This document shows, piece by piece, positions 1,995 through 51,992 of a stretch of 64,000 bases of DNA. Below the pieces are notes generated by a model. The model saw only the letters and a program-made list of their open reading frames with translations, did no database searches and was not told the origin of the DNA. Origin of the DNA: Utricularia gibba (Eukaryota > Streptophyta > Magnoliopsida > Lamiales > Lentibulariaceae); contig CM007989.1 of NCBI GenBank assembly GCA_002189035.1, positions 6,491,501 through 6,555,500 of the forward strand. The letters run 5' to 3'. The translations under genes were made by a program, and so were the position numbers. The stretch's first letter is position 1. Every line of letters starts with the position of its first letter.

Positions 1995-3115
1995 ATGGCT
2001 TCTGCTTCCATTTCACTCACATTGTGCACTTCTGTTCTTCTTCTCCCGGTGCTTCTAAGTGTAGCTTCTGGGGCAGCTCCAAGAAGACCAGTCGATGTAG
2101 CCTTCGGGAGAAACTACGTCCCCACATGGGCTTTTGATCACATCAAGTATTTCAATGGGGGCTCCGAGATTCAGCTCCTTCTCGACAAGTCCACAGGTGA
2201 ATGAATGCCAGGACTGTTCTTCCTTTCGCTAGGTATTCTTGTGCGCTGAACTGGAGTTTTGATTCAGGAACTGGGTTCCAGTCGAAGGGGTCTTATCTGT
2301 TCGGGCATTTCAGTATGCACATAAAGATGGTCCCCGGGGATTCTGCCGGCACTGTTACTGCTTTCTACGTGAGTGAAATACTCCCTTTTCACCCCTTCCT
2401 TTCTACCATGTAACCGATGATTGCCCTTGAATCACAGTTGTCTTCTCAAAACTCTGAGCACGATGAGATAGATTTTGAGTTCCTGGGGAACAGAAGTGGC
2501 CAGCCGTACATCCTTCAAACGAATGTGTACACTGGAGGCAAGGGGACAAAGAGCAGAGGATTTATCTCTGGTTCGATCCCACAAGGGAATACCATACCTA
2601 CTCCGTCCTCTGGAATCTCTATCAGATCGTGTGAGCTTTAGTTCTTTTTTCTTCAGTCATCTTGGGGCTTGCTCACTTGTCTCCGTTAGATTCTGACAAT
2701 GGAAACATCCAACAGGTTCTTTGTGGATGATGTGCCCATCAGAGTTTTCAAGAACAGCAAGGACTTGGGAGTGAGATTCCCGTTCCACCAGCCTATGAAG
2801 ATATACTCGAGTCTGTGGAATGCCGACGACTGGGCTACAAGGGGTGGACTGGAGAAGACTGACTGGAGCAAGGCGCCCTTCGTAGCTTCCTACAGGGGCT
2901 TCCATGTGGATGGCTGCGAGGCATCGGTTGCGGCCAAGTTCTGCAACACGCAGGGAAAGAGATGGTGGGATCAGAAGGAGTTCCAAGACCTCGACGCTTA
3001 CCAATGGCGTCGGCTCAAATGGGTTCGGAGCAAGTACACCATTTACAACTACTGCAACGATCGGGTTCGGTATCGTACTGTTCCAGCTGAATGCAGTAGA
3101 GATGGAGACATTTGA
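1995..3115 (+). CDS. Xyloglucan endotransglucosylase/hydrolase, XTH5-like (one-base frameshift)
   Basis: Secreted GH16 enzyme that cuts and rejoins cell-wall xyloglucan. Exons: 1995-2196, 2268-2368, 2438-2630, 2716-3115. Residues 1 to about 27 form a signal peptide. Exon 3 holds the catalytic motif [11 protein letters not shown], with the two Glu residues as nucleophile and acid/base, followed by an N-glycosylation sequon (NRSG). The last exon carries [13 protein letters not shown], the [21 protein letters not shown] block, and the XET C-terminal domain with its conserved Cys, ending RDGDI as in XTH4/5-type proteins. Exon 3 is one base short: after GGKG the frame slips, and the conserved [19 protein letters not shown] segment reads in +1. 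The slip sits at the G run 2542-2545. One extra base gives about 298 aa, the usual family length. It is either a sequence error or a recent null allele. Confidence 0.9.
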
Positions 3116-3346
3116 TGATTTCAGGAGATCAGCTTTTCTGCTGTTTACTTTTGCATCTTTGTGCTTGTTCTGAGCTTCTGAGCATACAGTTTCTGTATCA
3201 TTTCTTCTTCGTTTTATCTCACGGTACAATGCATTTGTTTGCTAAATGAAGTCATCCTGTTGGTGTTGATGGCTGTGCAGATTCATTAAAATCGGATCCT
3301 GAAAAATGACCCCTGTAAGAGATTTAGAAATGCATCTACAACCAGG

Positions 3347-5045
3347 TCACACAGCATGGTTCTTCTTCTTCTTCCGAGACCTGGCTAATGCATCGCATAT
3401 CTCGCGTTTACGTCTGTAGATGATGTCCTTCGCCGGCTCATTCTTGTTGCTTGAAGCCGTGTTCCGGCTCTCTAATGCATCACTAACTAAAAGTTTCAGC
3501 CTCCACAGTGTACACTCGCTCTGCTCCCACGAAGTTTGGAGTAGAGGGCAAAGCACAAAGCATCAGAGTTTGAGACGATCATGTGTAAAGTAGATATGTA
3601 TGCAGCAGTGTGTGGCATCAAGAACCTGAGCATTTATGTCCAGCTCCACTTCTTCAGCTGCAGCGTCGAAGTCCATGTTGCTTTCTGCTACAATTCGTAG
3701 TGCTCCGCTAAGGTCCTCGGGTTGCAGCCTGGCAAGAGTAACACCAAGCTTTCGTTTTTCCGTGTCGGATATTTGCCTATAGGGATGTTGCGAATAGTGA
3801 GATTCACGAACAAGCAGACTTGTAAAAGACACTGCAAACAAATAAGAAAAATGCACAACTAAGCTTGCCTGCATTTTTGGACAACCATCTCCCTGAGCTC
3901 TTCAATACGTGAATTGACATTGCAAAGCTGAAAGGGAAAATGGATACAAAATGATCATGATTACTGGGTACACAAAGATATAACAGAAGTACTCGACCCT
4001 TCTACCTCATCATGTAAATCCCTTGCCAATTTTGCATGAGCTGCCTCCTGAGCAAGTTGCATGCTCAGTTGTGCTTCATTTTCCTCGTCTTCTCTTCGTT
4101 TTTCCTGTAAGCATTAACAATGGAATCAACGCCCACACATCTGGGAAAATTATACAAACGGCCAACATTAAGGCCTCATGTTTGGTGTCAACATCCCAGT
4201 TGATGAACTTACCTCCTCTGCAACTTTCGGCAAAAACTGCAGCCACTTCTCCTCAAATTTTTCAAGAAGCGTCTTTGCCATTGTATAAACATCACTCTTT
4301 TCTTCATTGTACTTCATCGCATTGGTAAAAATTAACCGTACATCAGAACATATATCGGCCACATGCTTATAACCTGTCCCATCTTTAGCTTCCATCTGAT
4401 TTTTATGGTAGTGAAGTCCATTGGTCTGTCTATAATCTGCCACAGTTGATTCCTTATCAGTAACGAAAACTTACTAATTCGAAAATCAACTCTTAAAGAA
4501 GAACACAAACGGACCTGATAGTAATCATGCAATCCAAGCCCCTCAACATCAACAGGTTGCATAAATGGCCATGCCCACTTATGCTGTGTGATCTAAGACA
4601 TTGAAGACGAAGCTCAATTCATACAAGGATGCATTTTGATGATTCCAGGCTACAATTTCACAAACAAGCATCAGTTGAAACTTGGAATCGAAACTCGCCT
4701 GTCGAAATATGCTTCCAAACTGGCGCATAAGATCTTGCATCCTCTTAGCAGCAGCAGCTTCTCTGCGAGAAGCATCCTGGTGCAGCTTTTTCATGCTGGG
4801 GTTGTGTTTTTCCTTCTCCAGGCCATCAAATCTTTGACAAGCACGCGATAACTTCAAGTAAAACTGCTCTACATCATTGACCCGTTTCTCGATCTACCAA
4901 ATTAACCACAACAGTAAGTCCCAAATACTCGTTATACGCAGAAATGAAAGGAGATCAATCAATCGCAAAATTCAGGCCTCACTTCGTCTACAGTGGAGGA
5001 TAGCTCATCAATCCTAGTTGGATGATCACCCATATCTCTGGGCAT
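3347..5045 (-). CDS. Bromodomain-NET protein, GTE1/GTE6 (BET-type) family (one-base frameshift)
   Basis: Nuclear acetyl-histone reader. Eight exons in coding order: 4983-5045, 4699-4893, 4515-4592, 4213-4436, 4006-4104, 3869-3927, 3626-3776, 3347-3520. A coiled-coil N-terminus (ACQRFDGLEKEKHNPSMKKL) precedes the bromodomain: HKWAWPFMQPVDVEGLGLHD, then IDRPMDFTTI, then FTNAMKYNEE with the acetyl-lysine-binding Asn. A charged helix follows, then the NET domain (LARLQPEDLSGALRIVAESN, VELDI, TLWRLKLLV) and a basic KKKKK tail. Exon 4 is 224 nt where 225 are needed; one base is missing at 4400-4404 (T run on +), just after DFTTIK. Repaired length is 347 aa. Two introns (4593-4698 and 3777-3868) start with GC. 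The ATG at 5045 is the first in frame; an upstream leader exon is possible because the coding exon follows an acceptor-like TATAG. Confidence 0.88.
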
Positions 5046-5879
5046 CGTATCAGCAATACCTATAGAAATATCATCATGCACTGAGAACAGAATTGGAATC
5101 GTTTTTCATCCTATTACAATCACAGAAACTCGTGAGGTTCCATTCCCATTGAAGTTTCCCCGATTAGGTCATAAGGCGCAAGCAACTGCCGGAGAGAGAG
5201 AGAGGAGGGAGAGATGGGGACCTTCCAGCGGGTCGGGTCGGAGAAGGATCACCATTCAGGCTCAGGCAGCATGCCTTTCCATGAAAGAGAAGCGATCTTA
5301 ATTACCATTATTTTTGGTAATAAAAATATTGATTTAATAAAACCAATTAAAAAAATATAACGCAAGTGTCTTCATCTTCCACCGGCGACGCCGGTGGCGA
5401 CGGTGCAAGCTGAAGTGCATGAGGAGTACAGACAAGCTCATTGTACGCGCCCACGCTGAAGGTGCGTTGAAGGAGTCTTCGGCTTGTTACGTGTAGTCCT
5501 TTAGTCGTACTTTTTGGAAGGGTCGTTTGTTTGTGAGTCTTTGCGACTAATCGATCCTCCATGAGACGAATTTCTGACATCTACTCGAGGCCAGCCGACC
5601 CCGGCGACGGAGCCGCGACTTTTGATTCGCCGGCGCGCAATTTTCATGTCAAATGGAATGTCAATTAATATTTCTTAAATTGGTTTTTCAGTTGGGGCGG
5701 CGGGGTTCCCCTAAAATCTTGGAAACCCTAGTTTGAGTTTATTGCAGAAATTTCTGAAAGCTTATCCCCATCTGCGTGATTGACGAATCCAAATTGGGCA
5801 GTGGCGCCGTTGTCTGGACCCTCGTGCGGCGAAGCTCTTCTCGAACATTCAACAAGTTTTGGATTCTAATTCGATTTCT
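5046..5879. other. Divergent promoter region between GTE and mitoferrin genes
   Basis: 5046-5270 looks like the transcribed leader of the bromodomain gene, with a GA-rich tract near 5194-5215. 5280-5350 and 5640-5690 are AT-rich. 5700-5879 is probably the mitoferrin leader. Open frames on the minus strand at 5347-5580 have no recognisable content. Confidence 0.45.
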
Positions 5880-7029
5880 ATGCCGATGGCTACCGACGCT
5901 TCCCCGAAGTACAAACCAGACCTGATTCCAGCGCCGCCGCATCACCAGCTGGAGCATCACAGAGAGATGAGGGAGGCGGTGCATGACGGCCTCCGTTTTT
6001 ATGAGTTCATGATTGCGGGTTCAGTCGCCGGGATGGTGGAGCATATGGCTATGTTCCCTGTTGACACAGTCAAGACTCAAATGCAAGCTTTGGGTTCTTG
6101 CCCTATTAAATCCGCCAGCGTGAGCCAGGCGCTTCAGTCGATTCTTAAATCCGATGGCTTTAGAGGTCTCTACCGTGGGATCGGAGCTATGGACTCGGCG
6201 CTGGTCCGGCACACGCAGTTTATTTCTCCGTCTACGAGTTGTGTAAGAAGCGTCTTTCTGGTGGGAAACCTGATAATCATGTCGCCCACGCAGCTTCTGG
6301 AGTTTGTGCTACGGTTGCAAGTGATTCTGTGCTTACCCCCATGGACATGGTGAAGCAAAGGCTGCAGTTGAGTAGCAGCCCGTACAAAGGGGTCTGGGAC
6401 TGTATGAGCAGGGTGCTGAGGGAAGAGGGTGTTGGAGCATTTTACGCTTCTTACAAGACCACAGTGCTGATGAATGCTCCTTTTACAGCAGTTCACTTCG
6501 CCACCTACGAGGCTACGAAAAGGGGTTTGATGGAGATTTCGCCTGAAAACGTGAACGAAGAGACGCTTGTAGTTCATGCTACAGCTGGAGCAGCGGCAGG
6601 TGCATTGGCCGCTGTAGTGACCACTCCCCTTGATGTGGTCAAAACTCAGTTACAATGCCAGGTACTTGGACTGAATCTGGTTTATGATAACCTTGTGAAA
6701 TATGTCCATTTTGAGCTCTTGTCACGCATCAGATGCTGCTTCATCAGTTTGAACAAGGCTATGAGTCATTTCTCTTGCTTGTGCTTTAGACACCCTGTTG
6801 ATTCATTGCATCCATGCAGGGTGTATGCGGTTGCGATAGATTCGTCAGCGGTTCGATTATGGATGTTTTTCGGACCATTATAAAGAAAGATGGTTATGGA
6901 GGACTGATGAGAGGATGGATACCCAGAACGCTCTTCCACGCTCCTGCAGCAGCCATTTGCTGGTCGACATATGAAGCTGCTAAAACCTTTTTCCTGGAAG
7001 TAAATCACAGGAGCGACAGCATCACCTGA
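5880..7029 (+). CDS. Mitoferrin-type mitochondrial carrier (one-base frameshift)
   Basis: Inner-membrane carrier of the SLC25 family, mitoferrin group, which imports iron into mitochondria. Two exons: 5880-6661 and 6820-7029. Three carrier repeats are visible, each with a PxDxxK signature: PVDTVKTQMQ, PMDMVKQRLQ and PLDVVKTQLQ. A typical mitoferrin N-terminus precedes repeat 1 (LRFYEFMIAGSVAGMVEHMA). Start chosen at 5880, the first in-frame ATG, giving about 330 aa after repair. At 6191-6192 the sequence has GG where the family codon pattern (GIGAMG-LGAGPAHA) needs GGG. Downstream, YFSVYELCKKRLSGGKPDN and all later signatures read in the shifted frame. Exon 1 is 782 nt where 783 are needed. 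The gene is otherwise complete, so a sequencing deletion is more likely than decay. Confidence 0.9.
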
Positions 7030-7692
7030 GAGTCCAACCAGAGTGTGACACAAGGGATACAGATGCATGTAGGATGAACATTTTTTCATGCATAAGATCG
7101 GATCAATAACCCGGAGAAGAAAGGCAATCGATCAGGTCTCTCATTGTTTCATGTAGTTTATTATGGTGAGAAATTCATGTAGACATGGTATTACGTTGAT
7201 TTTGTAGTGGCTTTGCCTACCTATCCACAAATTTTGATTGGCAATCAGCATGAGAAAGTACTGGCCTTGTATCATTGTTCATTACCTTGATCTGTTGCCT
7301 TGAGGTATCTGTAGCTTAATCTATTCGTAAAATGACCTTTTGTGATCGCTGATAATTTCAAAGTACATATGATGCAGTGTCCCGCTTCTTGTTGGGAAGT
7401 CTAAACCCCAAGCAGGTTGCTCTGGTAATAATTACACAGCAACTATACCTCCAAGTGGCGTGAATACAACAACCTTGTCCCTGTCCCAGCCGAGATTGAG
7501 ACTTCTACATGGAAATCTGGGCTGTATTGGAGAGAAGAGAGCATGATGGACCACTTCGTTATTCATTTTAGTATCAACCTGGTGCAGGCAAGGAGACCAC
7601 ACTGCTGAATTGTGAACAAATAGGAGAGACATTTGTCAAAACAAAGTAAGACTTTAGGAGGTGAGGGTATTGTTTTTGCATACCGGAATTTG
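7030..7692. other. Convergent 3' regions of mitoferrin and SLP1 genes
   Basis: Moderate-GC sequence consistent with two tail-to-tail 3' UTRs. No coding signal is supported; a minus-strand open frame at 7432-7632 is not recognisable. Confidence 0.45.
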
Positions 7693-9725
7693 TTATACAT
7701 AATCTAGCTCCCTGTGTCGCTCTCTTCTAGTCTTGATTGGTCTTGCAATGTCATCTATTATTTCTAGAACCTGGTGAAGGACAATGATCCTAACTTTGTT
7801 CAGAGATTGAATTCTTCTGTTCAAGTTATGAAGTGCTTTAGAAAAGTAGATGTTTACTTCAGGAATGGAATCAAGGACTCCTCGTGACATCCCAACATCA
7901 ATGCGCCAGATACTACAATCGTACGCACTGCAAAGAAGTATTCAGCTGAGGAAATTTCCAGGAGGAGGATGTGGGCATGTCAAAGTTTTTTACCAATTTA
8001 CTCCCATGGTTTGTGGGGTGTGTCCTACCACCATGGCCTTGGCGTTTAGTGTAGTGAGTGTCTCATGAAGAATCGATTGGACCTGAGAATCAAAAAAGCA
8101 AGACGAGCCACAAACAATTAGCAAATGTGCACGCGACTTTCATGCACAGACATATGAATGCATAGGTGATTCCAAAGGAACCTGACAATCTTGCAGGCCA
8201 AAAGTGTCTCTAGAGTAGAGACGACTCCACACCACGCTATCATAACCTCTGGTTGCAATGAAAGGTATTTCCGGGTCACTATCGTCCGTTTGGAGGCCTC
8301 TCATCCAACGAGAGACTTCATTGTTCATCCTCTCTATACCGTACTCGACTGCAGAAGCACCAAACCAATGATTCAGGCATATAATAAGTAAACTATTCGT
8401 GCAGCTTACAGATGACAAGTGTCATAATGACCATGGTGAGGAAGAAGGCCGCCATGACAGAAAACCCAATCATTGATTTTGAGAACAACTGCATGCCCAG
8501 CTAACTCAGATGCCAGTGGACCTCCTGGTCTCAGAAGAACCGATCTTGCAATAACTCCCTTTTGGCGCTGTCCTAATATTCACATAACTGAATTAGAGAG
8601 GAAAAGGGATCTCCCATAAGCAACAAAGAAAACGCTGCTTAGCATCCTAAACACCTTAATAATATGGTCTAGTGTACAAAATAGAAACATACCTTCACCA
8701 AATTCCATGGATCCCAATGATTTTGCTGCATCTTACGGTGACTTCTGGATGTTTCAGATGCAGCAGACCAACCAACAAATGCTTCTTCCCAATTATGCCC
8801 ACAGATTTCCAGGTGTTCAAGAAAATCAGCACATTCATCGAAACCTCCTGATTCGACATACCTGAAGTCACCTTCCACGTTCATTGTTTCATGATTACCA
8901 TTAACCTAAAAACATAAATCACATTCGTCGAGTTCCATTTTGAAAGAACAAAATATGAGATAGGAGTAGACAACAATGTATACACCTGAAAAACTGCTCC
9001 TCCAATGGCTTTCGCCTGGTGATTTAATGACTTCAACAAGGATAAAATTGCAATTTCATCTTCCCCCCGATCTAGGATATCTCCAAGCTGAACTAGTATC
9101 TGGCAAGAAAACGAACGCCCTATCAGGATTTTTCTATCTATCTTTACGGTGTTCTTTCGATACTTCAAAAGAGAAACAAACCGTTTTCCCCCCAACCCAC
9201 GAGTCTTTACCATCAGAACTCAGAACACCCGCCATTTGAAGTGCAAATCTAGCTTTCTGAAGATCTCCATGCAGATCCCCAACTAAAAATTGCCACCAAA
9301 ACAGCAAGCATTAGAGACAGAAAACATGATCCAACATTCATGAGCCAGAGGCGCTATGCTCGTGCTCGTAGAAGATGATGCGCAACTTGATGATCCAGAA
9401 AATAATAATTGAAACTACCAAATCAACTGAAGCACGTTCTCCACTTGCAAAATACTTCGTTCAGATAAACACTATCAAATACCAGAGCAAAAAAGGCAAA
9501 GTTAAGCATCCATACCGGCGATGATTCGACGACCAGGGGCAGAAACAAACGTCGGCGGGTTTCCAATCACCACAATCGGCTTCAAACTTTCTCCCGTAGT
9601 GCGGCTACCGCTTTTGCTGACGCTTACCGAAGACGACTGCGATGAAGCACAGCAACTGATTCCAAGATCCTAGACTGATACGGCGTCTGGAGAAGCAAAG
9701 AACAACCGAGGAATGAGGAAGCCAT
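7693..9725 (-). CDS. SLP1: Shewanella-like protein phosphatase, plastid SLP1 type (one-base frameshift in transit peptide)
   Basis: PPP-family metallophosphatase of bacterial origin found in plastids. Nine exons in coding order: 9516-9725, 9182-9282, 8986-9099, 8693-8905, 8432-8567, 8182-8348, 7994-8082, 7858-7927, 7693-7770. Metal-binding PPP motifs appear in order: VGDLHGDL, QLGDILDRGED, NGNHE, FCHGGLLPHH, and a late histidine motif GHTPQTMG. The eukaryotic-type SAPNY motif is absent, as expected for SLP. The N-terminus (MASSFLGCSLLLQTPYQSRIL, then a Ser-rich stretch) looks like a chloroplast transit peptide. It is out of frame with the rest by one base at the CC pair 9662-9663; adding one base gives 392 aa, close to the family length. 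Exon 5 was set to start at 8567 because only this acceptor keeps frame into RQKGVIARSVLLRPGGPLA. Confidence 0.85.
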
Positions 9726-10608
9726 TCACTCCACGGTCCGCCGATTTCAGGAAGAGCCTTTCTCCGTGTGCCGATGTGGGTGTCCCGCCATTGAACGACC
9801 TTTTTTAACCACCGATTTCATATCCTTCAAATTTTGTTCAAATTATTTTAATATTTTTAACATATTTACATTACCGCCGCAAAACTTCAATATAATTATT
9901 TGCCGCCCCTTCAAGGATTCGTTAATTGCGATTCTCGACTTATGTTTAATTAGATATTCTATCTTTCTTTTTTTGAAACTATCAGGTTTATAGGGATTAT
10001 CACTCTTATTTATTGAATAATTAATTTATTTAATAAATTTCCTAAATACATTTAATTTAGTTTCAGTTTGATTTTTTACTTTTCAAAAAATAATTAATAA
10101 TTACAAATAATAAGCTGGAGAGCCCTTCTTGCAATTAAAAAAAAAAGAAGTTGAAAACATTTATCTTATCAAAATTATTTTTTAAAAAATATTTTCGATA
10201 TATGGAATCGAATATAGTCTTTATATTTATTAAGAAATAGCTTATATTTCCCAATTAACAAAATAGCTTTTATTTATTAAGAAATAGCTTATATTAAGAA
10301 TATACTCAATTTGTGATAATTGACTTTTTGTTCAACTCAAATTATGGTTTTTTTATAATTCAATTGTTTTATATCCTTTTTATCGTATTATTTTATAATT
10401 TTTAATGATTTTTATTTTTTAAATTAATTTGATCTTTTTAAAATAGAAAATATATCTTTTATAATTTTTCAAGATAATTTCAATTCACTTTGAACTTACT
10501 AAAGAATACTCTGAGTGTTCCATGAATTTTCTTCCTAGCTTTCCTATGCACAAACCAATGAAACAATAGGTGGTTATCAACCTAGAAGCCTGAAAAGTTA
10601 CTTTCCGG
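9726..10608. other. AT-rich intergenic between SLP1 5' end and WRKY 3' end
   Basis: 9726-9790 is the likely SLP1 leader. 9800-10480 is strongly AT-rich with a duplicated phrase (TTTATTAAGAAATAGCTTATATT near 10227 and 10273). 10500-10608 is the WRKY 3' UTR. No gene is seen. Confidence 0.45.
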
Positions 10609-12500: not shown

Positions 12501-13674
12501 GGAAACAGCACGTTGCGTAGAAAAGCGAAATCTGGTTCTTCTTCTTAAAGAAATGGAGACCTCGCACGCGTCAAAGCAAGTTCGGTGGGGGCACGGACTC
12601 ATAAGTTGCCTCTTTTGACTCGCTAAAAAATTAATTAATTTCCATTGTAATTAAAATTTTTTTACTGCAGATACCTAATTACTAAAACAAAATTTCATCA
12701 AATTATTATCCATCGCGTAGACAAAATTGTAGGATCTTTTTGAAAACTAACTGTACCAATATTCTCTCTCACACACTAATACTAAAATTTTACACATAGT
12801 ATAGTTATTTTTCACACATAGTAACAGTAGTCTGTTTATTTTTCAAAATCATCGGGAAATTCTATCGATTTTTTAATATTTTCGTAAATTTCGAATGCAA
12901 ATTATTATGACGCCAGCCATTCAAATAAATGTATAAAATTAATATTTTCAGTCAAAGCTCGTGTCTTTGACTGGGTAGCGGCGGCTGTGATGTGCGCGCG
13001 ATCCTTTGAGTCCTTTTCCTCGGGGTCTGTCTCCCCCACCCACAGACATTTTCAAACCGCTACCTCGTTACTACATCAAATAAAATACAATAAAACGGTT
13101 AAAATACAGTTCCGATGACGTGGCACTTGTCTTGTAACCAACGAAATATAATATAATGTTCAATAACCCCGATGTTATCCCGGATATTTAGAAATCTGGC
13201 CTGGCCACCTTATTACTATCGTAATTTTTTTTAACTCAATATGTGTGAGAGTATTTACTAAACGGCCCATGTTATTGTACTAATTAATGACATGGAGTGC
13301 CTATGTATGGTGGTAGTTAGGATATGGTGGGTAGACTTACTAAATAGGAAGAAAGTGATTTGAACTTGTTAACATCTTGGGTGGCAAAAGAAAATTTGTT
13401 AAGGACTTTCAGCCATCCGTTTATTTAATTATGATTCTAGATTTTAGGAAATGCAAAATAAAATGAATTGGAACTCGTAATTAGTGGAATCAAATCTTTT
13501 TAATGATTTATCAAACCCAAAATTTAGACCATGAACTTGTAGGGTACTGCTTGTTACTTGGGCGTTGTTTGATATGAAAGTATAAGATTAGTTTATGATG
13601 AATTTAATAAAATTAGATTGTTTTATATGTAGATATAATTATAACAATTACACGAATATAATTATCATTATACA

Positions 13675-13705
<31 letters not shown>

Positions 13706-20208: not shown

Positions 20209-20222
20209 ATATATTATATATA
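20209..20222 (-). promoter_or_regulatory. Candidate TATA box of eIF2 beta
   Basis: A TATATAATATA-type run on the minus strand just upstream of the predicted first leader exon (about 20134-20190). Position fits a start near 20180, with the leader then spliced to the coding exon. Confidence 0.35.
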
Positions 20223-25887: not shown

Positions 25888-27834
<1,947 letters not shown>

Positions 27835-28099: not shown

Positions 28100-29338
<1,239 letters not shown>

Positions 29339-31839: not shown

Positions 31840-33658
31840 CTACCAGGCAGTGTTGGGACGTTTGATACCAGTAGAAGCGAAGGGGAACCTTCTTCTCCAA
31901 CGCTTCTCAGCATCGCCAGCTCCCTCAGCTGCTCTTTTTTGTACACGTCCTGCGACTCCTCCTGCGTTTCCACCACTCAAAAAGCTCGATAAACCAAACA
32001 CCAGCGCCTGAGTCGTTCAGGATCTTACCACAGGCTTCAGCAGCTCTTCAATGATCTCCTTGGCTTGTTTCAGACGGATGTCCGCGGTACCGGCCGGTGG
32101 TTTTGCTGCTTCTGCTTCGATCAGGATGTGCAGTGGCTCGCTCAGATGTTCATAGCCCGGTTTGCCCCTCAGGTTCTCCTCCTGAGGTGAATAATGTATG
32201 AAAACTGAGATGAGGATCAGCTGCATCAGTACGTTTTACCTTCTCAGAATCTTTCAGCGAGCCTCTTCCTCGTATGAAGACACGGCAACCAGTGGAAGCC
32301 TCCACCCGTTTCAGAGAATTGCCTCTGGGACCAAGAAGCCGCCCCACGAAATTGAACTGTTGATGAAGAGTGGATCAAGGGGGTATCAGAGAATTGGAGT
32401 GTAATACCATTAGGGGCGCCATACATTCGGGTATGCATCAACGGGGATGTCCAGGCGCAGCATTTTCTTCACAGGAAATGAACTTGGACTCCCGGGAGGC
32501 CTCCAGTCCGGCGGCTTACCCTCCACACCATTTAACCACTGTTAGCAGGAATCTCAGGTTTCAGGTTAAGTGGTGATCCAAAGTGTGGAATGAAAAAAAC
32601 CAATGATAAGAATTCAGTGAGATGGGAACTTACCTCCGAGTGCAATCTGCTCCAGCCATTCCAGTTCCAGGTGCTTAAAGGATGCTGGCCTATAGGATTA
32701 GGAGCCATCGCTTCCAAGAAAGGTAAGGGACTGTGTAGTCTTTCATAGTTGGTAAAACCATGGTTCAATATTCTTCCCGAAAGTCTCATTATTTCTGCAA
32801 CTTGCAAATGGTTATAAATCTGAAGAAATGAAACCACATAGAGACAAGGTAGCATGACAGGGATGAAGAGGTATTGATAGAAACAAATCAGCATCTAAAC
32901 ACCAACGTGGCATTTCAAGATGATGAGAGAAATATTTCTATCTGGATGGGCAGAAAGCAACAATAGAAACAAAAGAGAGAATGAGAGGCCAAGATCACTA
33001 AAGCAGGTATCCTTGATGCCTCATCCAAGAAAAATCCAGTAGCTCAGACCTATTGAGGTGGCTCTCAAATAGACTGCTAGGCTATAAACATTGCATGAAA
33101 CAGCAAGAATGGGGTATTGCCAAAACGGGACATATGAAAAGTATATGCAGAGGCATTGAGAAGTAAGCACATATTCAATGCTTCCCACCTAACACCGGCA
33201 ACCACCAGAATTATGCACGTCTCCGAAAACCAACACTCACAATCCCATTCACTCCTAGTAATTGTCGGAAAAACGAGACAGAGAATATTTGGATGCCATT
33301 GTTGCTGCTTGAAAACAATAACAAAGGCACCAGAGAAAAAACCTGCAGCAGAGTAGCAGATCCAAAAGTTGAAGGCAGGAGGTATTAACCTTGATCCAGG
33401 AGACGACTACAAACGGGCAGCGCTTGCATGAATGGCGCCAGTTTCTGCCTTTCCATCAGCAACTCGGACAAATACTGACTGCAGCCAATCAAAAACACCA
33501 AATGCACATATGACCCACATAAAAAACCTAGCAATCAACAATCCTGAACACAAACTACGAAATCTAAAATACCTCTCCACATCGGCCATAGTTCTCGGAC
33601 GAGGAGAAGGGATATTTGTAGTAGGGGAGAAGTTCTTCTGGGCGTACAAATTAGCCAT
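31840..33658 (-). CDS. KH-domain RNA-binding protein, STAR/QUAKING-like plant family (one-base frameshift at 3' end)
   Basis: Nuclear RNA-binding protein of the SPIN1/Quaking-like group. Seven exons in coding order: 33573-33658, 33390-33478, 32634-32794, 32425-32538, 32240-32356, 32029-32181, 31840-31961. The STAR homodimerisation region ([34 protein letters not shown]) precedes the extended KH domain: [12 protein letters not shown], then [20 protein letters not shown] with the GPRG loop, [34 protein letters not shown] and IIEELLKPV. The final exon is 122 nt where 123 are needed. One base is missing at the G run 31882-31885, and beyond it the family C-terminus ([11 protein letters not shown] and stop TAG at 31840) is read in the shifted frame. 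Repaired length is 280 aa. Without repair a novel tail would be predicted. Confidence 0.88.
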
Positions 33659-36808: not shown

Positions 36809-38427
36809 CTATCTCTTGTATGGTTTGAGGTGGTACTCTTGGAATTCTGAAGCGAAGGATACTGATTCTTCCTCGAGCTTCTTCTGCAACCTTCTCCAAG
36901 TTCTGAGCATATCAGCTTGAATCAAACCACGGTACAATGTCTCAAAGGTGATCTTTTGTGGGAGGAATCCCTTCTCGATCATCTCAACGAAGAACATGCA
37001 CGCCTGTTTCCATTTCCGTTTCTCACACAATCCATGGATCAGTAACGTGTAGGCATCCAGATCAGGTCCAATCCCACTTTGCTTCAAATCATCCCAAATC
37101 TCCCAAACAAGCCCCATTTTGTCTAGCTTCAAAAACATTCCTAGCAGTATACAATACGTATGCAGATCAGGTGAAAGATAGACACCCTCCTTCATTTTCC
37201 TGTACAACCTTAGTGCACTATCGATCTCCCTTCGTCCCCTGAACTGCTTAAAGAAGCAGTTGTATGTTTCAGCTGTTGGGGTGATTCCATGATGGACCAT
37301 GTCATTCAGCAACTCCTCGGCATCATCCATCCTACCACAACAACAAAGACATTTTATTGCAGATGTGTAGGTCGCCAAGCTCGGCCAAATTCCTTTCTGT
37401 TTCATCATCATCAGCTTGTCTAGGCACAGCTGGGGCTTATGTGCCCGGGTATACACATGGAGCAAAATTGAGTAACTAGTGACATCAGGTTCCAAGCCCC
37501 GCTCACGCATTTCATCGAATACCATCTCCGCTTCCCTGATCACCCCGTCCAATCGACTATCGCAGTGGAGCTTAGCATGCCTGCAAATCCCATTCAACAG
37601 TACATTGTAGGTGACAACGTTTGCCTCGATCCCCCTCTCCAACATCTCCCCCAGGAACTTCTTTCCCATATCAGATTTCCCAACTTTGCACCATCCATAT
37701 ATCAGAATGGTGTACAACTTGGCATCCGCGTCCAATCTGTATTTCTCCTTGTTGAAAATCTCTACAGCAACTTTCACATACCCATACTTGCACAGAGTGT
37801 CCATCAGATAGCGGAATAGGAAACTAAACTGTGACTCGAACGCTTCATTACCAAGGATAACGCCGATGTCATAAAAGGCACGAATTGCAGTTCTGGTCAA
37901 CCCTGCGGCGACCAATCTTCTGATAAGCACAAAGAAAGTAGTGAAATCGGGCTTCGATTCATCGCCCTGGTTGTCCATCTGGAAAATCAGTTGCCACGCC
38001 GCGTCAAATTGTTGAACCCTACCTAAAATGTCGATCAGTATATTGTAAGCAGCAGTGTCCACAATCGCAGCAGAAGAGAGATGGCCATCACCCTGAGCGT
38101 ACTTGAAGAAGGCGAGTGCAATCTTCGAATGGTGACCCAGCCGGAGAAGGGTTTGTTGGATCAGAGAGGGGAAAGGCTGATACCTTGGATTTGTAGGGAA
38201 GATTCCATATGGTGAAACGGATTGTGGTGGCGGATTAGGAGTTGAGAAAGAGCGTCCGCTTCTGGTGATGGTTGGATGGGCCGAAGAGATGGTTTCGCCA
38301 TTACATCGCACGCTGGCGTATATGGGTCGCGTTCATCGGAATCGTGATGTGAGCGGAAGAACCTTAGGCGGGGTGCGGCCATCGCCGCCGTCAGACGAGG
38401 GCTGCGAAAGGGGATTAACGCCGGCAT
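36809..38427 (-). CDS. P-type pentatricopeptide repeat protein, organellar (one-base frameshift near N-terminus)
   Basis: Intronless, as is usual for PPR genes. About a dozen 35-residue repeats follow one another, for example VVTYNVLLNGICRHAKLH, DVTSYSILLHVYTRAHKP, LATYTSAIKCLCCCGRMDDA and DLDAYTLLIHGLCEKRKWKQ. There are no E or DYW domains, so P class: organelle RNA binding for stability, splicing or translation. The uninterrupted frame starts at 38311, but the family N-terminus lies in another frame from 38427: MPALIPFRSPR, then PEADALSQLLIRHHNPFHHM and ESSLQIQGIS. It joins the main frame if one base is added at the G run 38168-38171 (ISLSPSLIQQTLLRLGHHSK). That gives 539 aa. A start at 38382 is also possible. 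The target organelle is not certain; the basic N-terminus would fit mitochondria. Confidence 0.88.
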
Positions 38428-41220: not shown

Positions 41221-42320
41221 TGTAACCCTACACGATCCCAAACCTCATAACCAACATGGTAACACACAAGAGAGTTCATTTGAGGAAATATAGCAAGGTT
41301 TGGCCGAAAATCATTATAAGTATATACAACCTAAGTAGTTTACAACACACTTCACAAGTGAAGTATCTTTCCATCACAAGTATCAAAATGTCTAGTCACC
41401 TAACAACCATTGGGGAGGCACTCCCCACACATAGTTACGTCAATAACATAACACAATCCTAACAACTAGGGAAGGCACTTCTCGTGTCATTAGCGCTACA
41501 AGCGCTTGCTCAAAAACATGACTCTCGGCCACCCCAAGTCTCGCTATCCCATCGGCGCACCCTCCTCGGCCACCCAGCGGTAGACCCGGTGTTTGGACCT
41601 ACACACAAGAACATGTAAGGCGTTAGTTTTGTGGTAGGAGGAACATCATTCCTCATCTCAACCCCATCTCAGTCGTCACTCGTGTTCCCCTGCTCAAAGG
41701 CTCACGGCTTCCATCCCGCGGCTCTCCCGTATTGCCGGCAGACCACGTTCCCGACTGTGGGAAAGGCCCACATCGCCCCTACTCATATGAGCTCAGGCTT
41801 CCACGATCTCGGACAGACCCGAGTTGCCGCCGATGTTCGATCTTCACCGGCCCTGCCCGAAGGCTCCATTTGCTCGCCTAAACTGACGTTCAAGGTTAAA
41901 CCCCTTACCTTCGCCGCCTCCGATGACTCTTGCGCACTCCGCGTCTGTTTCTGCCCTGTTTGTGCCATCGTTCCTCACAGGTTGCGATTGATCTCCTCTC
42001 TCGGACATGTGGTCGAGCCCTAATTTCATCCCCAATTCAATTTAATGGGTTAATTCTTGAGGCGGGTCATGCGTGGAGACTATCCCTGCCCACGTCCCTG
42101 CCCAGCTGACTGACTCCCTTCCCCTCCTGCCATGTGCCTTGCATGCCTCCCACGCAGGTGGTGGTGAATGGTGCTAAGCCCACCGATTTCTTCCCACGCC
42201 GTGGTCACTATATCGCTTAGCCACACCTCTCACCCTCTCCTGTCGCAGTTGACATACGTTCAGCTCGTAGCAAGGGTTACCAAGACTCTTTCCACACTGT
42301 TCTAGCTCCCAGTCATTACA
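41221..42320 (-). repeat. 3' long terminal repeat of the gypsy element
   Basis: 1,100 bp, direct repeat of 46535-47659 with many substitutions and small indels. TG...CA termini. Confidence 0.9.
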
Positions 42321-42346
42321 TTACCCTCCCCCTCTTTTAGAAGGTT

Positions 42347-45300
42347 TCATCCCGAAACCGTACCTTTAAAGAGTTCAGGATGTTGTTGCCACATCTGTGT
42401 TTCCGTCTCCCACGTGGCATCCTCTAGTCCTAGGTTCACCCACTGTATCTTTAGCCATGTAATTGGCTTTCCTTGCTGCGTAGTGATCTTTCTTCCCAAA
42501 ATTTTCATTGGCCTCACCCTATAAGTGAGGTTGTCCCCTACATTAAACTCATCATTCCTAACTTCTCTTTCCGGATCTAGGATTTGTTTATGTAGTTGGG
42601 AGACGTGAAAAACATTGTGCATCCATGTGAACCTTGGTGGAAGTGCAAGTCAATATGCTACCATTCCTATTTTCTGCACGACCCGGTATGGGTCTATGAA
42701 CTAGGGTCCCAATTTGCCAAACTTCGGGCTCCTGGTTAATCCTCGTTAGGGTGACAACCGCAAATATACTGTTTCTCCTACTTCATATTGTAAGGGTCTC
42801 CGCTCTTGGTCTGCCCAGCTCTTTTGGCGGTCATGCACCACCTTCAGTCTCTCCCGAATGACTTTTACTTGTTCTCCATCTCTTCGATTTGCTCATGGTC
42901 GGCCAATGCCCGCTCGCCTACCTCGTCCCAATGCAGCAGGATCCTGCACTTGCGTCCGTACAACACTTCGTATGGTGACATCCTCAAGCTCGCTTGGTGA
43001 CTATTGTTGTACGCAAATTCCGCCAGAAAGACATTCTCATCCCAATATCCCGGAAATTCTACGGTGCTCGCCCGCAATAGGTCCTTTAAGGTCTGGATTG
43101 TGCGTTCCGATTGACCATCTGTTTGAGGGTGCATTGCAGTGCTCATAGTCAGTTTGCTCCCCATCGCCTTTTGCAGTGCTTGCCACAACCGAGACATGAA
43201 TCCAACATGTCTATTCGATACTATGCTTGTGGATACTCCGTGTAGCCTCACTACTTATGCGATGTACACTCGGGCTACCCTCACGATGCTCCATTTCGAG
43301 AGAATTAGGATGAAATGGGCGCTCTTCATCAGCCTGTCCACTACCACCCAAATAGCCTCATGTCCAGACCTTGTCCTTGGCAAGCCTATATCACGAAGTC
43401 CATTGCTATCTGTTCTCATTTCCACTCTAGTATCTCCAATGGTTGCAAGAGTCCACCGGGTCGTTGGTGCTCCGCTTTGATTCATTGACATACTTGGCAG
43501 CGACTCACAATATCTTTTTTCATTCCTGGCTACCAGTATGTGCCCCGAATGTCTATGTACATCTTTGTTCCCTTAGGGTGCATCCCGTATCTTGCTTCAT
43601 GAGCTTCTCGCAATATCAACTTTCTTAGTTGCTCTTCTAGTACCCATATCCTTCCATGTGCCATGATTAGGCCATCTACTTGTCTCGAAAAAGGGTCATG
43701 TCCGGCGCATGCCTTATCATAGATGTGGTGCTCTTTAGTGGCCTCTTGTGATCGTAAAATTCTCTCAAGTAGGCTAGGTTCCATTTAGACTATCGTCTGA
43801 ATCTCTCCTCTCCCCACTACTTCCAATCTCATTCTCTCTATATCTATCATCCTCTCTCAGGCTCCTGCCTAGGCCGTCTGGCACTATGTTCGCCTTGCCA
43901 AGGTGATAATTTACCCCTAAATCATAGTCCTTGAATAGCTCAAGCCACCTACACTTTCTCATGTTTAGCTCCTTCTATGTGAACACGTACTTCAAATTCT
44001 AATGGTCCGTATATAGTTCGCACCGTACACCGTACAAGTAATGTCACCATATCTTTAATGCAAAAATCATCATCACCATCTCAAGGTCATGGACCAGGTA
44101 GTTCCTCTCATGGTCTTTCAGTTGCCTAAATGCGTAGGCAATTACTTGTCATTCCTGCATCAATATGGCCCCCAACCCTTTCCCACTAGCGTCGGTGTAC
44201 ACTTCGTAATCCTTTCTAGCCTGTGATAGTGCCAAGACTGGTGCTTGTGTCAAGGCCCTCTTTAGCCAATCAAAGCTGCCTTGGCACTCTGTCCATTCGA
44301 ATGCTTGAATCTTCTTCAACACCTCCGTTAGGGGTCGTGCCTTCTCCGAGAAGGACTTAATGAATCTACGATATTATCCTGCCATTCCCAAGAAGCTTCT
44401 CACTTCACCCACATTCCTAGGTGTTGCCCATGCAGTGATGGCCTCTACCTTCTTCGGGTCTACTGCCACTCCCTGTCCAATGATAATGTGACCAAGAAAA
44501 CTGATGTTCCTTAAGAAAAATTTGCACTTGGTTGCCTTTGTATACAATTTCTTCTCCCGCAACCTTGTTAAAACCGTGCATAGGTGCTTCCAATGGCTGT
44601 CTCAATCTGACGATTAGACTAAAATATCATCAATAAAGACCACCTACGAAGTCGTCAACGAAGGGTTGGAACAACCGGTTCATTAAATCCATGAACGCCG
44701 TAGGCACGTTCGTGAGACCGAACGGTAGTACAACGAATTCATAGTGACCATATCTCGTCCTAAACGTGGTCTTTGAGATATCCTCCTCCCTAATCTTTAG
44801 TTGGTGATATCCCAAGCAAAGATCAATTTTGTAGAACACCATTGCTCCTCTCAATTGGTCAAACAAGTCATCGATCCGCGGTAGGAGAACACTATTGCTC
44901 CTTTTTCTTCATGAAGAGCACCGGTGCTCCCCAGGGCGATGCACTTGGGCGAATGAACCCTTTCTATGTCAGGCCTTCTAGTTGTATCTTTAACTCTTTC
45001 ATCTCAGCTGGTGCCATGTGGTACGGGGTTCGGGAGATCAGTTTCACATCTCCAATAAGTTCCACATGGAAGGTCACTTCTCAATCAGACATTTGTCACG
45101 GTAGTTCATCAGGGAGCACATCCTAGAATTCCCTGGTTAACTCCTTGACCTCATCCATCGGTTCCTTCTCTTTATTTTCAGTTAGAAATGCCAACAAATA
45201 ATACCGTTTTCCCTCGTCAACCTCCCCTTTGGGGTGATTCCCCATCGCTGGACTATACTCCCACTTTTGTCGCCACCGGTCCTCCAATTCGACTATCCAT

Positions 45301-46451
45301 TCTGCGCATCCAATCCTTGCTTGGTGTCGTCGGAGCCAATCCAAGCCTAGTATGACGTCGGAGCTCTATCAGATTAAACTCTATTTCCATTGCCCCTAGT
45401 TTCATCAGCATGTTGGTGTGCTTCTGTCTCCCATAAAGTATCCTACCCCTTGGTGTTCTAGCCTCGAATATTCGAACTAAGTCTTCACCCTTCAGTCACA
45501 CTTGTTGCACACACTCTTTAATGAAAGAGTGTGTAGCCCCAAAATTGAACAACACTATGCAATTAGTATCCAAGAGCAGGAGCGTACCTATAATCGCCTT
45601 GTCGTCCTTCTCAACCTCGGCCTTGTGTACCCCTCCTCCCACCTTTGGCTCTATAACGTTAGTCTCGATCTTTTGCTCGCTTACAGCGTATCTCTTCCCC
45701 GCACTTTGCCAATAGCCCCTAATTCGGATTCTACAAGTAGTGCTGCCCGAAGTAGCTCCTCTAAGTTCTCTGTTGCCACGGAGATGATTCGCTCCCTCAA
45801 GCAGGGTAGAAGGGTTTGCCGAAACTTAAGCGTCACCAGGCGTTTGCTGTCCATTAGTCCCGGGGCAAATCTCAGCAGTCCCTAGAAACGTGCATAGAAA
45901 TCGTAGACAGTCTTTCCGTTCTTCTATCAAATAGCCTCCAAATCCACTATCTTCTATGTCAACACTACTGCCGAATAGAATCTGTCGAGGAAACACTCCT
46001 TGAAGACTGACCAGTCAGCATCCACCCTCGTACTCACAATACTTCTCCACTAACGTGCTGCATCACCTAACAGGAAATCTATCGCAATCCTACCGCACTG
46101 CTCCTTTGGGGTATTGTGGATTCACATATTCTGCTCCAGTTCCATGAGCCATGCATCGTCCTCGTTCGAGGTCCCTCCACCGAATGTAGGCATCCTCCCC
46201 TTCTTGAGGTGTAGTAAATGCATACGCTCTTCCTCCTCAGGTGACTTCACAATCTCCATTCTGCTCGAGGAGGATCTCACCGCTGCAAGGATAGTTGCTG
46301 CTAACTTCTCCAATTCACCCTTAGTAGCAAAGTTGTCTACGTACTTAGCTGATCCCTTAGTACTCTCGTAGGTTTGTGGCATGCATCTCTCGATAGGGAA
46401 CTGCTCCCCCACACGCCGAGCTATCTCTATCTCATAAAAGTCAAACCACAC
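42347..46451 (-). pseudogene. Gag-pol remnant of the gypsy element
   Basis: Broken polyprotein read on the minus strand. Gag is near 46122-46451 (a frame containing DDAWLMELEQNM). Protease is near 45500-45560, where the expected D-S-G active site reads N-F-G (VLFNFGATHSF), so it is dead; the flank DVILGLDWLRRHQARI follows near 45330. The RT core is near 44600-44870 ([33 protein letters not shown], and VFIDDIL with both Asp kept, then a stop). RNase H remnant is near 43770-43960. Integrase is near 42865-43490 (SNRHVGFMSRLWQALQ, TAMHPQTDGQSERTIQTLKD, EFAYNNSHQASLRMSPYEVL). A chromodomain-like tail lies at 42347-42560 (WVNLGLEDATWE). Many frameshifts and stops, so it is non-coding today. Confidence 0.9.
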
Positions 46452-46515
46452 TTGTTAGTTCTAACTCCACTTACTGGGCGTTCCACGGTGCCTGGGAGGT
46501 TGCAACGATGGGAAA

Positions 46516-46531
46516 CCTGGCTCTAATGCCA
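46516..46531 (-). other. Primer-binding site of the gypsy element
   Basis: TGGCATTAGAGCCAGG on the minus strand, three bases inside the 5' LTR. It differs at two positions from the usual plant initiator tRNA-Met site TGGTATCAGAGC. Confidence 0.8.
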
Positions 46532-46534
46532 GAA

Positions 46535-47659
46535 TGTAATGCCCCACGTCCCCAAACCCCATAACGAGCATGGTAACGCTACTTTTCGGCCGTGCACAGA
46601 AGAGAGTTCATATGAGGAAATATAGCAAAGCTTGGCCAAAAATCATCATTAGTAGGTACAACCTAAGCAGTTTACAATACACTTCACAAGGGAAGGATCT
46701 TTCCATCACAAGCATCAAAACGTCTAATCACCTAGCAACAATTGGGGAGGCACTCCCCGCACATAGCTACGCCAAAAACGTAACACAATCCTAGCAACTT
46801 GGGAGGGCACTTTCAGTGTCATCAACGCTACAAGCGCTTGCTCAAAAACATGACTCTCTCCCACCCTAAGTTTCGGCTATCCCATCGGCACACCCTACTC
46901 AGCCACCTTAGCAGTAGACCCAGTGTCTGGACCTACACACGAGAACATGTAAAGTGTTAGTTTTGTGGTAAGAGGAACATCGTTCCTCATCTCAACCCCA
47001 TCTCGGTCGTCAATCAGTGTTCCCCTTCCCGAAGGCTTACGGCTTCCATCCCGCGGCTCTCCCGCATTGCCGGTAGACCGGGTTCCCGACCGTGGGAAAG
47101 GCCCGCATTGCCCCCCGCTCATACGAGATCAGGCTTCCACGACCTCGGATAGACCCGAGTTGCCACCGATGTTCGATCTTCACCGGCCCTGCCCGAAGGC
47201 TCCATCTGCTCGCTCGAACCAACGTTCAAGGTTAAACCCCTTACCTTCGCCGCCTCCGGTGACTCTCATGCACTCCGTATCTGTTTCCGCCCTGTTCGTG
47301 CCATCATTCCTCTCAGGTCGCGACTGATCTCCTCTCTCGGACGTGTGGTCGAGCCCTAATTTCATCCCCAATTCAATTTAGCGGGTTAATTCTTGAGGCA
47401 GGTCGCGAGTGGGTCGCAGGTGGAGATTGTCCCCTGCCCACGTCCCTGCCCAACTACCCAACTCCCTTCCCCCTCCCTTGCCACATGCCTCGCATGGGTG
47501 GTGGTGAGTGGTCTAAGCCCATCGATTTCTTCCCACGTCGTAGTCACTATATCGCTTAGCCATACTTCTCACGCCCTCCTATCGCAGTTGACACATGTTC
47601 GGCTCGTAGTAAGGGTTACCAAGACTATCTCCACACTATTCTAGCTCTCGGTCATTACA
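46535..47659 (-). repeat. 5' long terminal repeat of the gypsy element
   Basis: 1,125 bp, direct repeat of 41221-42320. It contains an extra 14-base stretch near 46582-46600 absent from the other LTR. Confidence 0.9.
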
Positions 47660-49228
47660 ATAAGGAGCCTAAAAAAACCTCACAAACCCTAATTTTGAAA
47701 ATAAAACCCAAAATTCTAAAAGCAGACACTCAACTTGCAAGTGATGAGTCACGGTTTTGCAATAAATAAGGTTAAGTATGATCTTGGTGGATTTCATCAT
47801 CTAAATACCAATGTTTTACTTCATTCCTTCAATTCAGAAAAAAAAAAACTATTCTAATTCATGTAGATTTTAATTGTATTGTTTATCATTTATTAATTCA
47901 TATTTTATTTTAACAATAATATACATAATTTATTTGCCACCTTCTCATACAAAAGTTATTATTGTTGATGTTCTTATGAATTATTTCAGTAATTGGATAA
48001 TTAAAAGCAAAGTATGTAATATTACAATTAACAATAATGTTTTATAATGATGTATGCATTCACATGTTCAAATATATCTTTTTAATATGAAAGATTTTAC
48101 CTATTGAAAGTCCAATATTTTATATTAGTATCTTAAATCTTTTGGTATAAAATAATTTTAATCAAATTATGATGTTTTATATCAGAATTTAAATTTTTGA
48201 ATTGTTTATAGGCTCATCTGATGGAATGGAAAGATAAAATAAATATTGTAATTGCTTAGTGGAAAAATGATTTTGGATTGTACTATTAGATGAAATTTTA
48301 TGTACGTAATATTATCTTCTATCTTAAAAGTTAAAGTTGTGTTTATGAAATATTAAAAATAAATAATAGTTTTCATTATGTTTTTACTATTGATGGAAGT
48401 TTGTAGTTGTAGCAAATACGTGATTCTTTAACTTATATTTATATGTTATCAAACATTATGATTCTTTTTAATTACTCAACCTCTAATCTTTTTCTTACAA
48501 AGTTTTGTAGATTTAAATAACTTTTGCTTTAGTTTAGATCCCAATTAGTGTGTCAGAACTATGGCTTTCAATATGAATGTAAAATTAGATAAGTATTAGA
48601 ATGAATATAATATGATAATAATATTAGCATATGTTTTAGATCTTAAATTCAAATTAGAGTTGATGAAATTTTTTTGTGTAATATTGCATAGAGATGATAA
48701 GAATTAAGACACATGAGAAAATTGAATGTCAATAAATCGTTAACTGATTTATAAATGAGTAATGTAATTTCAAATATAACATCTCAATTAATTTAAGTAA
48801 AAACTTCTATATCAAAATAGATAATATGTATATTGAAAATTCTGATTATATGCCAAAAATTATAACAACCATGTCACAGTTGGCTTCATTTAGAATGAAC
48901 ATAGTATCTCACTTTTTGGAAAAGTAGGATTTGGAAAAATACTTGTCAAATGATATTATTTGTTGTGATTTTAGTGATCCTAATATTGCATTAAAATTTG
49001 ATATTTTAAATTGATGGAAAATAAATAATATAAAATATCTAATCTTAGCCAATATTGCAAGATATATTTTGATTATTTCTATAATATTTATAGAATCAAA
49101 AACTATTTTTAGTGATTATGATTAAGTTATCAATGATTTTAGATCAAATTTATCAATTAAAATATGTAAGATGTTATTTTATACTAATGAAATATAAATA
49201 TATCTTGTAATGAATTTATATAATAAAG

Positions 49229-49289
<61 letters not shown>

Positions 49290-49816
49290 TAATATTTATT
49301 TTAAATATATCTAATTATTTTATTTGATAATAATTGTATTTTTATTAATAATAGCACATTAATTATTGAAGCAAGTGAGGAATAATGAGAAACAAATATG
49401 AGATATATATTTCACTTACAAATATATATTAATTTGTTTTATTTATTATTTATTTTTTAAGAACATGTTTGATACTAAAGTTTTATATTTAAAATTAAAT
49501 ATTTAAAATTAAATAATATAAATTTATTTTTAAAAAAATTAATTTAGAATATAAAGAATTATAATAATTGATAAAGACATAATGTTGATTTTGATTGGCA
49601 AATTCGTTTATTTTTTTTTTTATCACTTTAGAGATGGATAAGATGCCTTTGTTTGGGGTCAACATGAGATCGATCCCTGAAGCAAATTGAGAACCATAAA
49701 AAAAGCTATCTTTTCTGTGGAGGGCATCTTGGTGACTCCCATGATCTTGATCCCAAGCTCTCCTGCTGGCGAGGAAGCTAAAAAAACCATAGTTTTTTTT
49801 TTCTTTTTGTTGTGGA
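47660..49816. other. AT-rich intergenic downstream of the retrotransposon
   Basis: About 2.1 kb, strongly AT-rich, with an AT microsatellite at 49231-49287. 49620-49816 is the likely leader of the hydrolase gene. No coding content is recognised; it may hold old, unrecognisable repeats. Confidence 0.4.
49231..49287. repeat. Long AT dinucleotide microsatellite
   Basis: A perfect AT run of 57 bases, the longest simple repeat in the window. Length may be unreliable if homopolymer and short-repeat errors occurred. Confidence 0.95.
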
Positions 49817-51992
49817 ATGGCGAATTGCCTTACCTTCGTTGCATTCCCTTGTTTCAAGCACCGGTCTATGTCTTTTGGGTCGTCTTCCCGTCCCCTCTAC
49901 GCGAAGAAGGATTCCTTCTTCAGTTGCAAAGCGATCAATGAGCCGAACGAGGTAAGTTTGGTGTAATTTCTGTGCTGGAACTGTGTTAAAGTTACATTTG
50001 AATATTGCGATAACTCCAGGATTATTATTTGGTCGATGCGCCAACATCTATTGGTGATGGGTTTTCTTTTAGTGGAGGTTAGAATACAGAATGTGTCGCT
50101 TCGTAATGAAAAGCACGAGCTTTAAGAAACTTTTCAACTGGGCTGTTGAGATCTTTCGTTGAACAGGGAAGTATTCAGATGAACCAAGTCCTGCTGATGA
50201 ATGGTTCAACCAAGGAAAAATGGTAGGCTTCATGGTGATCTGAGCAATGCATCTGTATATCACATATTCACATGCTTTCCTTCACCTGTACACCATGGTG
50301 ATATGTGCAGGTGAAAGCACATCCTGTTGGTGGCACCGGTGAGAAGGCAAAAGATCCCATTTTCGGACTACCAATGGCTGGTTCTTCACAGGCATCCACG
50401 GATTTATTCAGGTAATCAGGATCAACCAACACACCAAAAGATTGAATCAATCAACCCCTATCATAAGATGCATCACAGTTGTTGAGGATGTGCTTCAATG
50501 CAGAGCATCTTATGAAATTCTATTTGATATGGCCAGATAGGTGGTTTTGCATTGAAAGTGGAAGCCCTGATAATCCACCCATTATCTTGATCCATGGCTT
50601 CCCATCACAGGTGCACATAACTTTTTTCCTTCAGGTTTTCAGCTTCTTTTCGATTTTGATCTTCATATAGTGGTGCAGGCATACTCATACCGCAATGTGC
50701 TCCCTATTCTGTCCAAGAATCACCATGCTATTGCAATGGATTGGTTAGGTAAAACTAACACCAATTAGATGCGTCAAGCAAGCAACTGGGCAATCAAAAG
50801 CTTTGTTTTTGTTGCAGGTTTTGGGTTTTCAGACAAACCACAGCCTGGCTATGGCTTCAACTATACAATGAAAGGTATGGGGGTTCTTAATCTGTGTAAG
50901 ATTATCAAACAATACTGTCCTAAATTCATCCTTGAAAATCTCAGAATATGTGGAGTCCTTTGGATCCTTGATGGATAAGCTGGCTAAGGACAGGATCACT
51001 CTTGTTGTCCAGGTGGTTTATTCAAGCAAGAAACAGATAGCCAAATGATCAATCAGTTTGTTAATTCTGAAGAGATCCTCTTGTTCTTTGGTAGGGATAC
51101 TTTTCTCCAGTAGTGGTGAAGTACGCTGAGGATCACCAGGATAAGCTCAAAAATCTCATTCTTCTCAATCCACCCGTATGTGATCTCACAGTACTCCATT
51201 CATTTTTCATAGCCATATTCACTTCTCCTCTTTGGTTCATTTGGATCATCTCTATCGCATAGTTGACTTCTAAGCATGCCACACTCCCATCATCACTTGC
51301 CATGTTCAGCAACTTCTTGGTTGGAGAAATCCTTTCTCAGGTGAGAGCACGTGGAATCAATCCATACCCATGCTTTCTTATTTGGTAACATCAAAAACGG
51401 TTCATCAGGATCCAATAAGAGCTAGTGACAAAGTGCTGGCCAGCAGTGGGCCGTACAGCATCAAGGAAGAAGTCGCCATGGTGTACAGAAGACCATACCT
51501 GAGTTCTGGTTCTGCTGGTTTTGCCCTGAATGCAATTAGCAGATCGATGAAGAAGGAGCTCAAGGTTACACTCGTTTTTCTCTTCATACAACTTCATTCT
51601 TCCCTGTTTCTCTGTAACGAATGGGATGCAGGTGTACATAGAAGACATGAGGAGAACCCTGATGGATGAAAAATGGCGAGTTAAGACAGTGATTTGCTGG
51701 GGCGAGAGAGACAAGTGGTTGAGCTTCGATGGAGTCGAAGACTTCTGCAGAGAATCCAAGCATCAACTCATCACACTCCCTCAGGTACACCGCATTTCTT
51801 CTACTGTGCAGTTTTCAGTCACTCGAAACCCTGGTGGATGACTGCGGGGCTGGAGTTCTGCTATGGCGGATTCCATGTAGAATGCATACCAGGTGAAAGG
51901 TGTGTGTCTCTTTGTGGTTTCAGGCGGGGCATCATGCACAGGAAGATTGGAGCGAGGAAGTGGGGAAGGTGATAGCAAGAATGGCAAGATGA
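49817..51992 (+). CDS. Plastid alpha/beta-hydrolase, haloalkane-dehalogenase-like, probable pseudo-enzyme (one-base frameshift)
   Basis: Twelve exons: 49817-49951, 50167-50222, 50311-50411, 50541-50610, 50679-50748, 50818-50874, 50945-51012, 51095-51175, 51263-51340, 51409-51564, 51632-51784, 51924-51992. The N-terminus (MANCLTFVAFPCFKHRSMSF, rich in Ser and Arg) looks like a chloroplast transit peptide. The fold is clear: oxyanion loop PPIILIHGFPSQ, then AIAMDWLGFGFSDKPQPGY, late acid in CWGERDKWLS, and catalytic His in AGHHAQEDW. The nucleophile elbow reads VVQGYFSP where dehalogenases have VVQDWGG, so the nucleophile position is Gly. Exon 2 is 56 nt; frame needs 57, pointing to a lost G at 50166-50168. 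Repaired length is 364 aa. The exon 1/2 junction is the least certain part. Confidence 0.85.

Follow-up and report, generated by a model that had tools for sequence, protein, structure and literature searches.

Introduction

Residual indels in assemblies built from long reads only are known to interfere with the prediction of proteins (Watson and Warr 2019, as cited in PMC8306402 and PMC8337076). In the long-read assemblies described in PMC8306402, PMC12007338 and PMC8812927, as in the assembly considered here, indels outnumber substitutions, are concentrated in homopolymers, and introduce frameshifts and early stops into normal genes. The cases in these sources are mainly nanopore-based and bacterial, whereas the present one concerns a plant, probably PacBio reads, and short runs (2–6 bases) with a G/C bias and one-sided losses. 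A second system that invites comparison is the fractionation of homoeologues after whole-genome duplication. The likeness is that the locus lies in a duplicated block and that decayed copies do exist (an SLP1-like gene on contig C412, and RPL10 at C1:537k); the difference is that real decay combines multiple mixed lesions with relaxed constraint, unlike the sites described below.

A PacBio genome of Utricularia gibba has been described as an HGAP assembly (coverage 88x, contig N50 3.4 Mb; PMC5793159, Table 2); the assembly used here fits it in size class and contiguity and is probably this one. It comprises 100,091,633 bases (100.09 Mb) in 516 contigs. The window, i.e. the whole stretch of 64,000 nucleotides that was analysed, corresponds to C1:6491501–6555500 on a contig of 8.5 Mb. 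The original prediction for this window held that nine one-base deletions in short homopolymers interrupt its genes. Six of the nine (2542, 4400, 6191, 28102, 29158 and 31882) are firmly confirmed as one-base losses by comparison with related sequences, in genes that are otherwise subject to strong purifying selection, although the one reported at 29158 belongs at 29151–29154; 38168 is likely and 9662 plausible, while 50166 reads through a single TGA. The broken frames are very probably residual consensus errors of long-read assembly that were incompletely corrected with accurate reads, in which case the plant's own reads would carry the missing bases. The breaks thus belong to an ordinary, well-known class of artefact, which in this instance can be shown convincingly from the assembly itself.

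Internal references and test of codon register

A DNA search of the genome locates a collinear duplicated block for the window on contig C412 (about 819–911 kb, minus strand, mostly 70–91% identical), and additional paralogues of window genes on C375, C4 and C1. Because the homoeologous block and the paralogues serve as references, most of the claimed lesions can be tested from the assembly alone. The same search found no near-identical second copy of the window; the best genic matches are the homoeologues, at about 70–90%. The minus strand of the window also carries LTR retroelement remnants at 41600–47600, with reverse transcriptase and integrase-like fragments.

In the register test, the window is aligned with its copies, and the substitutions, mostly at third codon positions, are checked for the same phase on both sides of the gap column. 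Phase is retained at the XTH (2542), carrier (6191), RPL10 (29151–29154) and KH (31882–31892) sites, with p between 5e-10 and 0.005, and the register disappears at these sites once the gap column is ignored. Frame scoring by codon usage is informative at the XTH, GTE and carrier genes, weakly so at 50166, and uninformative at 9662, 38168 and the KH gene. The sites, with the evidence for each, are as follows.

2542–2545, plus strand: one-base loss, xyloglucan endotransglucosylase/hydrolase (XTH) gene (Pfam, paralogue register, PDB match)
4400–4404, minus strand: one-base loss, bromodomain (GTE-type) gene (Pfam frame switch, paralogue on C4)
6191–6192, plus strand: one-base loss, mitochondrial carrier (mitoferrin-type) gene (homoeologue register, Pfam)
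9662–9663, minus strand: possible one-base loss, N-terminal extension of a presumed SLP1-type phosphatase gene (adjacent frames)
28102–28104, plus strand: one-base loss, 10-nt first exon of RPL10 (uL16) (homoeologue, plant uL16 chains)
29151–29154, plus strand: one-base loss, C run in RPL10 exon 3, reported as 29158–29159 (homoeologue register)
31882–31892, minus strand: one-base loss, close to the 3′ end, KH-domain (SPIN1-like) gene (homoeologue register, neighbouring KH match)
38168–38171, minus strand: likely one-base loss, PPR gene, between the N-terminal segment and the first repeat (frame handover)
50160–50168, plus strand: doubtful site, single in-frame TGA or one-base loss, gene taken to be alpha/beta-hydrolase-like (frame reading)

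Confirmed one-base losses

In the XTH gene, positions 63–101 of the Pfam profile Glyco_hydro_16 match in one frame and positions 94–123 in the next. The paralogue at C375:3149631 is one base longer at the gap, with third-position mismatches in register (p=5e-10), and the exon downstream of the break matches PDB 1umz (E=9e-78). The bromodomain gene shows a similar switch: Bromodomain positions 10–45 lie in one frame (a weak match, E=0.089) and positions 51–83 in the next (E=1.3e-7). Here, too, the paralogue (C4:487.2–488.4k) is one base longer, and the phase of the mismatches is equal on either side of the gap at 4400. For the carrier gene, the homoeologue at C412:904930 has one more base at 6191, with the periodicity in register (p=2e-4), and Pfam Mito_carr matches are present in both frames around the site. 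The KH gene differs in length from its homoeologue (C412:868908) by 21+1 bases with the periodicity retained (p=0.003), and the adjoining exon carries a KH profile match under the curated cut-off; the exact base lost, reported as 31882–31885, would lie somewhere within about 31882–31892.

RPL10 carries two of the nine reported sites. Its homoeologous first exon is one base longer, ahead of an identical gtaag donor, and plant uL16 chains in the PDB have four residues ahead of the PAR at residue 5, matching what this exon would encode. The break reported at 29158–29159 is real and lies in exon 3; the homoeologue (C412:870983) places the extra base in the C run at 29151–29154 and not in the GG originally named, with the periodicity retained (p=0.005). 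Over 166 codons, the window gene and its homoeologue show two amino-acid-changing vs 40 silent differences. The older copy at C1:537k presents another picture, with several insertions as well as deletions and, over 96 codons, 23 differences that change the amino acid; judged by these mixed lesions it is a genuine pseudogene, unlike the RPL10 of the window. This copy lies in the stretch C1:536901–541000, where the RPL10–KH gene pair as a whole has an older duplicate.

In the same part of the window, an RPT3-type proteasome ATPase gene (27270–27400, minus strand) has a first intron that appears to start with GC (AAC|GCAAGT) instead of GT; the homoeologue gave no match to this GC donor in a pattern search.

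All lesions at the confirmed sites are one-base losses, without the mixed insertions, stops and larger deletions expected of a pseudogene. The predicted G/C bias is borne out, with eight of nine sites (seven of eight without 50166) in G or C runs, compared with a share of 48% among coding-sequence runs (p=0.014 for all nine, p=0.026 for the eight). So is the predicted lack of insertions: none was found in the coding stretches of the window covered by homoeologues, about 8.5 kb of periodic alignment.

Weaker sites

In the PPR gene, the frame at 36812–38332 holds eight PPR_2 stretches (Pfam), and the N-terminal frame stops exactly where this frame takes over; a one-base loss at 38168–38171 is likely on this handover. 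Among the copies that served as references, none covers the junction. At 9662–9663, in a gene that is presumably an SLP1-type phosphatase, the start (MASSFLG...) and a GISCCASS... stretch lie in adjacent frames of a poorly conserved N-terminal extension, which makes a one-base loss plausible; the scanned fragments of this gene gave no Pfam match. The homoeologue of the SLP1-like gene at C412:903.4–903.8k has decayed and illustrates genuine gene loss following duplication.

The site in the gene assumed to be alpha/beta-hydrolase-like is of a different kind. One frame reads KLFNWAVEIFR*TGKYSDEPSPADEWFNQGKM across 50127–50222, its sole stop being the TGA at 50160–50162, and this frame appears to be in phase with the next exon. 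Since one frame is open on either side of a single TGA, a deletion at 50166–50168 is not the simplest reading; the TGA may represent a real nonsense codon, result from an error or stem from a misjudged splice site. For the junction exon, the genome search returned this locus only, with no paralogue, and the structure search no solved relative. It is possible but rather unlikely that the consensus errors mask true lesions at a few sites, above all at 50166 and perhaps at 9662, in genes on their way to being lost.

Constraint and single-locus genes

The most serious general alternative is real, independent gene loss, in which copies shed after the whole-genome duplication would each have acquired a frameshift. 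The position of the window in a duplicated block with homoeologues on C412 speaks for it, and the decayed RPL10 copy demonstrates that real pseudogenes exist in this genome. Nevertheless, this explanation is very unlikely. Each tested gene has a lone one-base loss and a Ka/Ks far below 1, whereas the real RPL10 pseudogene has many mixed lesions. On either side of the breaks, Ka/Ks is 0.003–0.14 in the XTH, carrier and RPL10 genes, values that show no relaxation of constraint; in the KH gene it is 0.11 on the 27-codon side and 0.51 on the 12-codon side, the latter too short to judge.

A further argument against gene loss comes from genes that have no second copy to fall back on. PRP8 and acetyl-CoA carboxylase are indispensable genes, and each has one such break at its only locus in the assembly. 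In PRP8 (C412:508.3k), the human protein is matched in one frame as far as residue 408 and in the next from residue 407 onwards, leaving no room for an intron. In acetyl-CoA carboxylase (C244), positions 403–513 of the Pfam profile ACC_central and then 547–641 lie in adjacent frames, with the break at about C244:477,586. PDB searches with the acetyl-CoA carboxylase fragments gave no match. Because these two genes are broken at their sole loci, the lesions appear to be independent of gene importance and genome-wide.

A truncated DCL3 has been published for U. gibba, and its authors report a check by RNA-seq and 5′ RACE (PMC8333044). A profile search found only three Dicer_dimer matches in the present genome. 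In view of both points, DCL3 was dropped as a candidate consensus error.

Regions assembled twice

Two stretches of the genome, 38.8 kb in total, have been assembled twice, and one-base indels in short runs, chiefly of G or C, make up most of the differences between the two versions. Contig C316 (38,022 bp) duplicates C412:825.7–860.4k, and C177 (24,235 bp) duplicates C451:2.518–2.527 Mb, at 99.6–99.9% identity. Between C177 and C451, 9,514 aligned columns contain no substitutions and eight indels, five of them of one base; between C316 and C412, 29.3 kb contain 23 substitutions and 42 indels, 35 of them of one base. Of the one-base indels, 36 fall in runs of no more than six bases. Of these 36, 24 affect G or C, compared with a G/C share of 35% among all runs of this length in the contigs concerned (p=1e-4), and 32 sit in runs of two or more. 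The G/C share in the window (8/9) is not different from this 24/36. The same spectrum separates C177 from C451, which cover a single region and show no substitution between them; this is a further point against gene loss.

The direction of the differences can be read as well. The window, as homoeologue, polarises the C316/C412 differences and has the longer version in all seven clear cases; the longer version is therefore ancestral. The polarised losses fall on both contigs, and one of them, at C412:831919, shortens an in-frame gap from 6 bases to 5. One-base losses are about three times commoner on C316 than on C412; C316 was perhaps built from fewer reads.

The main (large) contigs lose bases at a rate of 0.23 per kb (95% CI 0.11–0.44). 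This value is taken from the doubly assembled regions, to which the window does not belong; the rate in ordinary contigs may differ. It predicts about 4.6–6.5 coding losses in the window's coding sequence, whose length is estimated at 20–28 kb, vs about eight seen. Number, direction, context and location, together with the doubly assembled regions, thus favour consensus error over independent gene loss, as originally proposed.

Might the deletions instead be heterozygous one-base variants of the sequenced plant that were taken into the assembly? Since C316 and C412 also differ at 23 substitutions, part of their difference could be allelic, and some allelic difference may exist. In natural variation, however, substitutions are normally several times commoner than indels; here, one-base indels and substitutions stand at 35 to 23 (C316/C412) and 5 to 0 (C177/C451), which makes allelic variation extremely unlikely as the source of the breaks. 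Finally, restoration of the frames by programmed frameshifting, RNA editing or unrecognised mini-introns is scarcely credible: nothing beyond the frame switches themselves points to it, whereas the sites have no evident motif in common, the tested homoeologues have an unbroken frame, related plant proteins (uL16 and XTH chains in the PDB) need no such device, and most breaks lie inside continuous conserved coding sequence.

Implications

Residual consensus error would account for the window as follows. Roughly every 4 kb, a short run, most often of G or C, would lose a single base in the consensus, and each such loss in coding sequence would break a frame, so that the share of genes that look broken though intact may lie between a fifth and a third. 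For most of the "broken" genes in the window, the plant's own version is almost certainly intact. Doubly assembled regions and homoeologous blocks provide an internal, read-free gauge of consensus error. With the main contigs losing about 0.23 bases per kb, about a quarter of typical coding sequences of 1–1.2 kb would appear frameshifted; any claim made from this assembly alone that a gene is lost, truncated or pseudogenised therefore needs a check against reads or cDNA.
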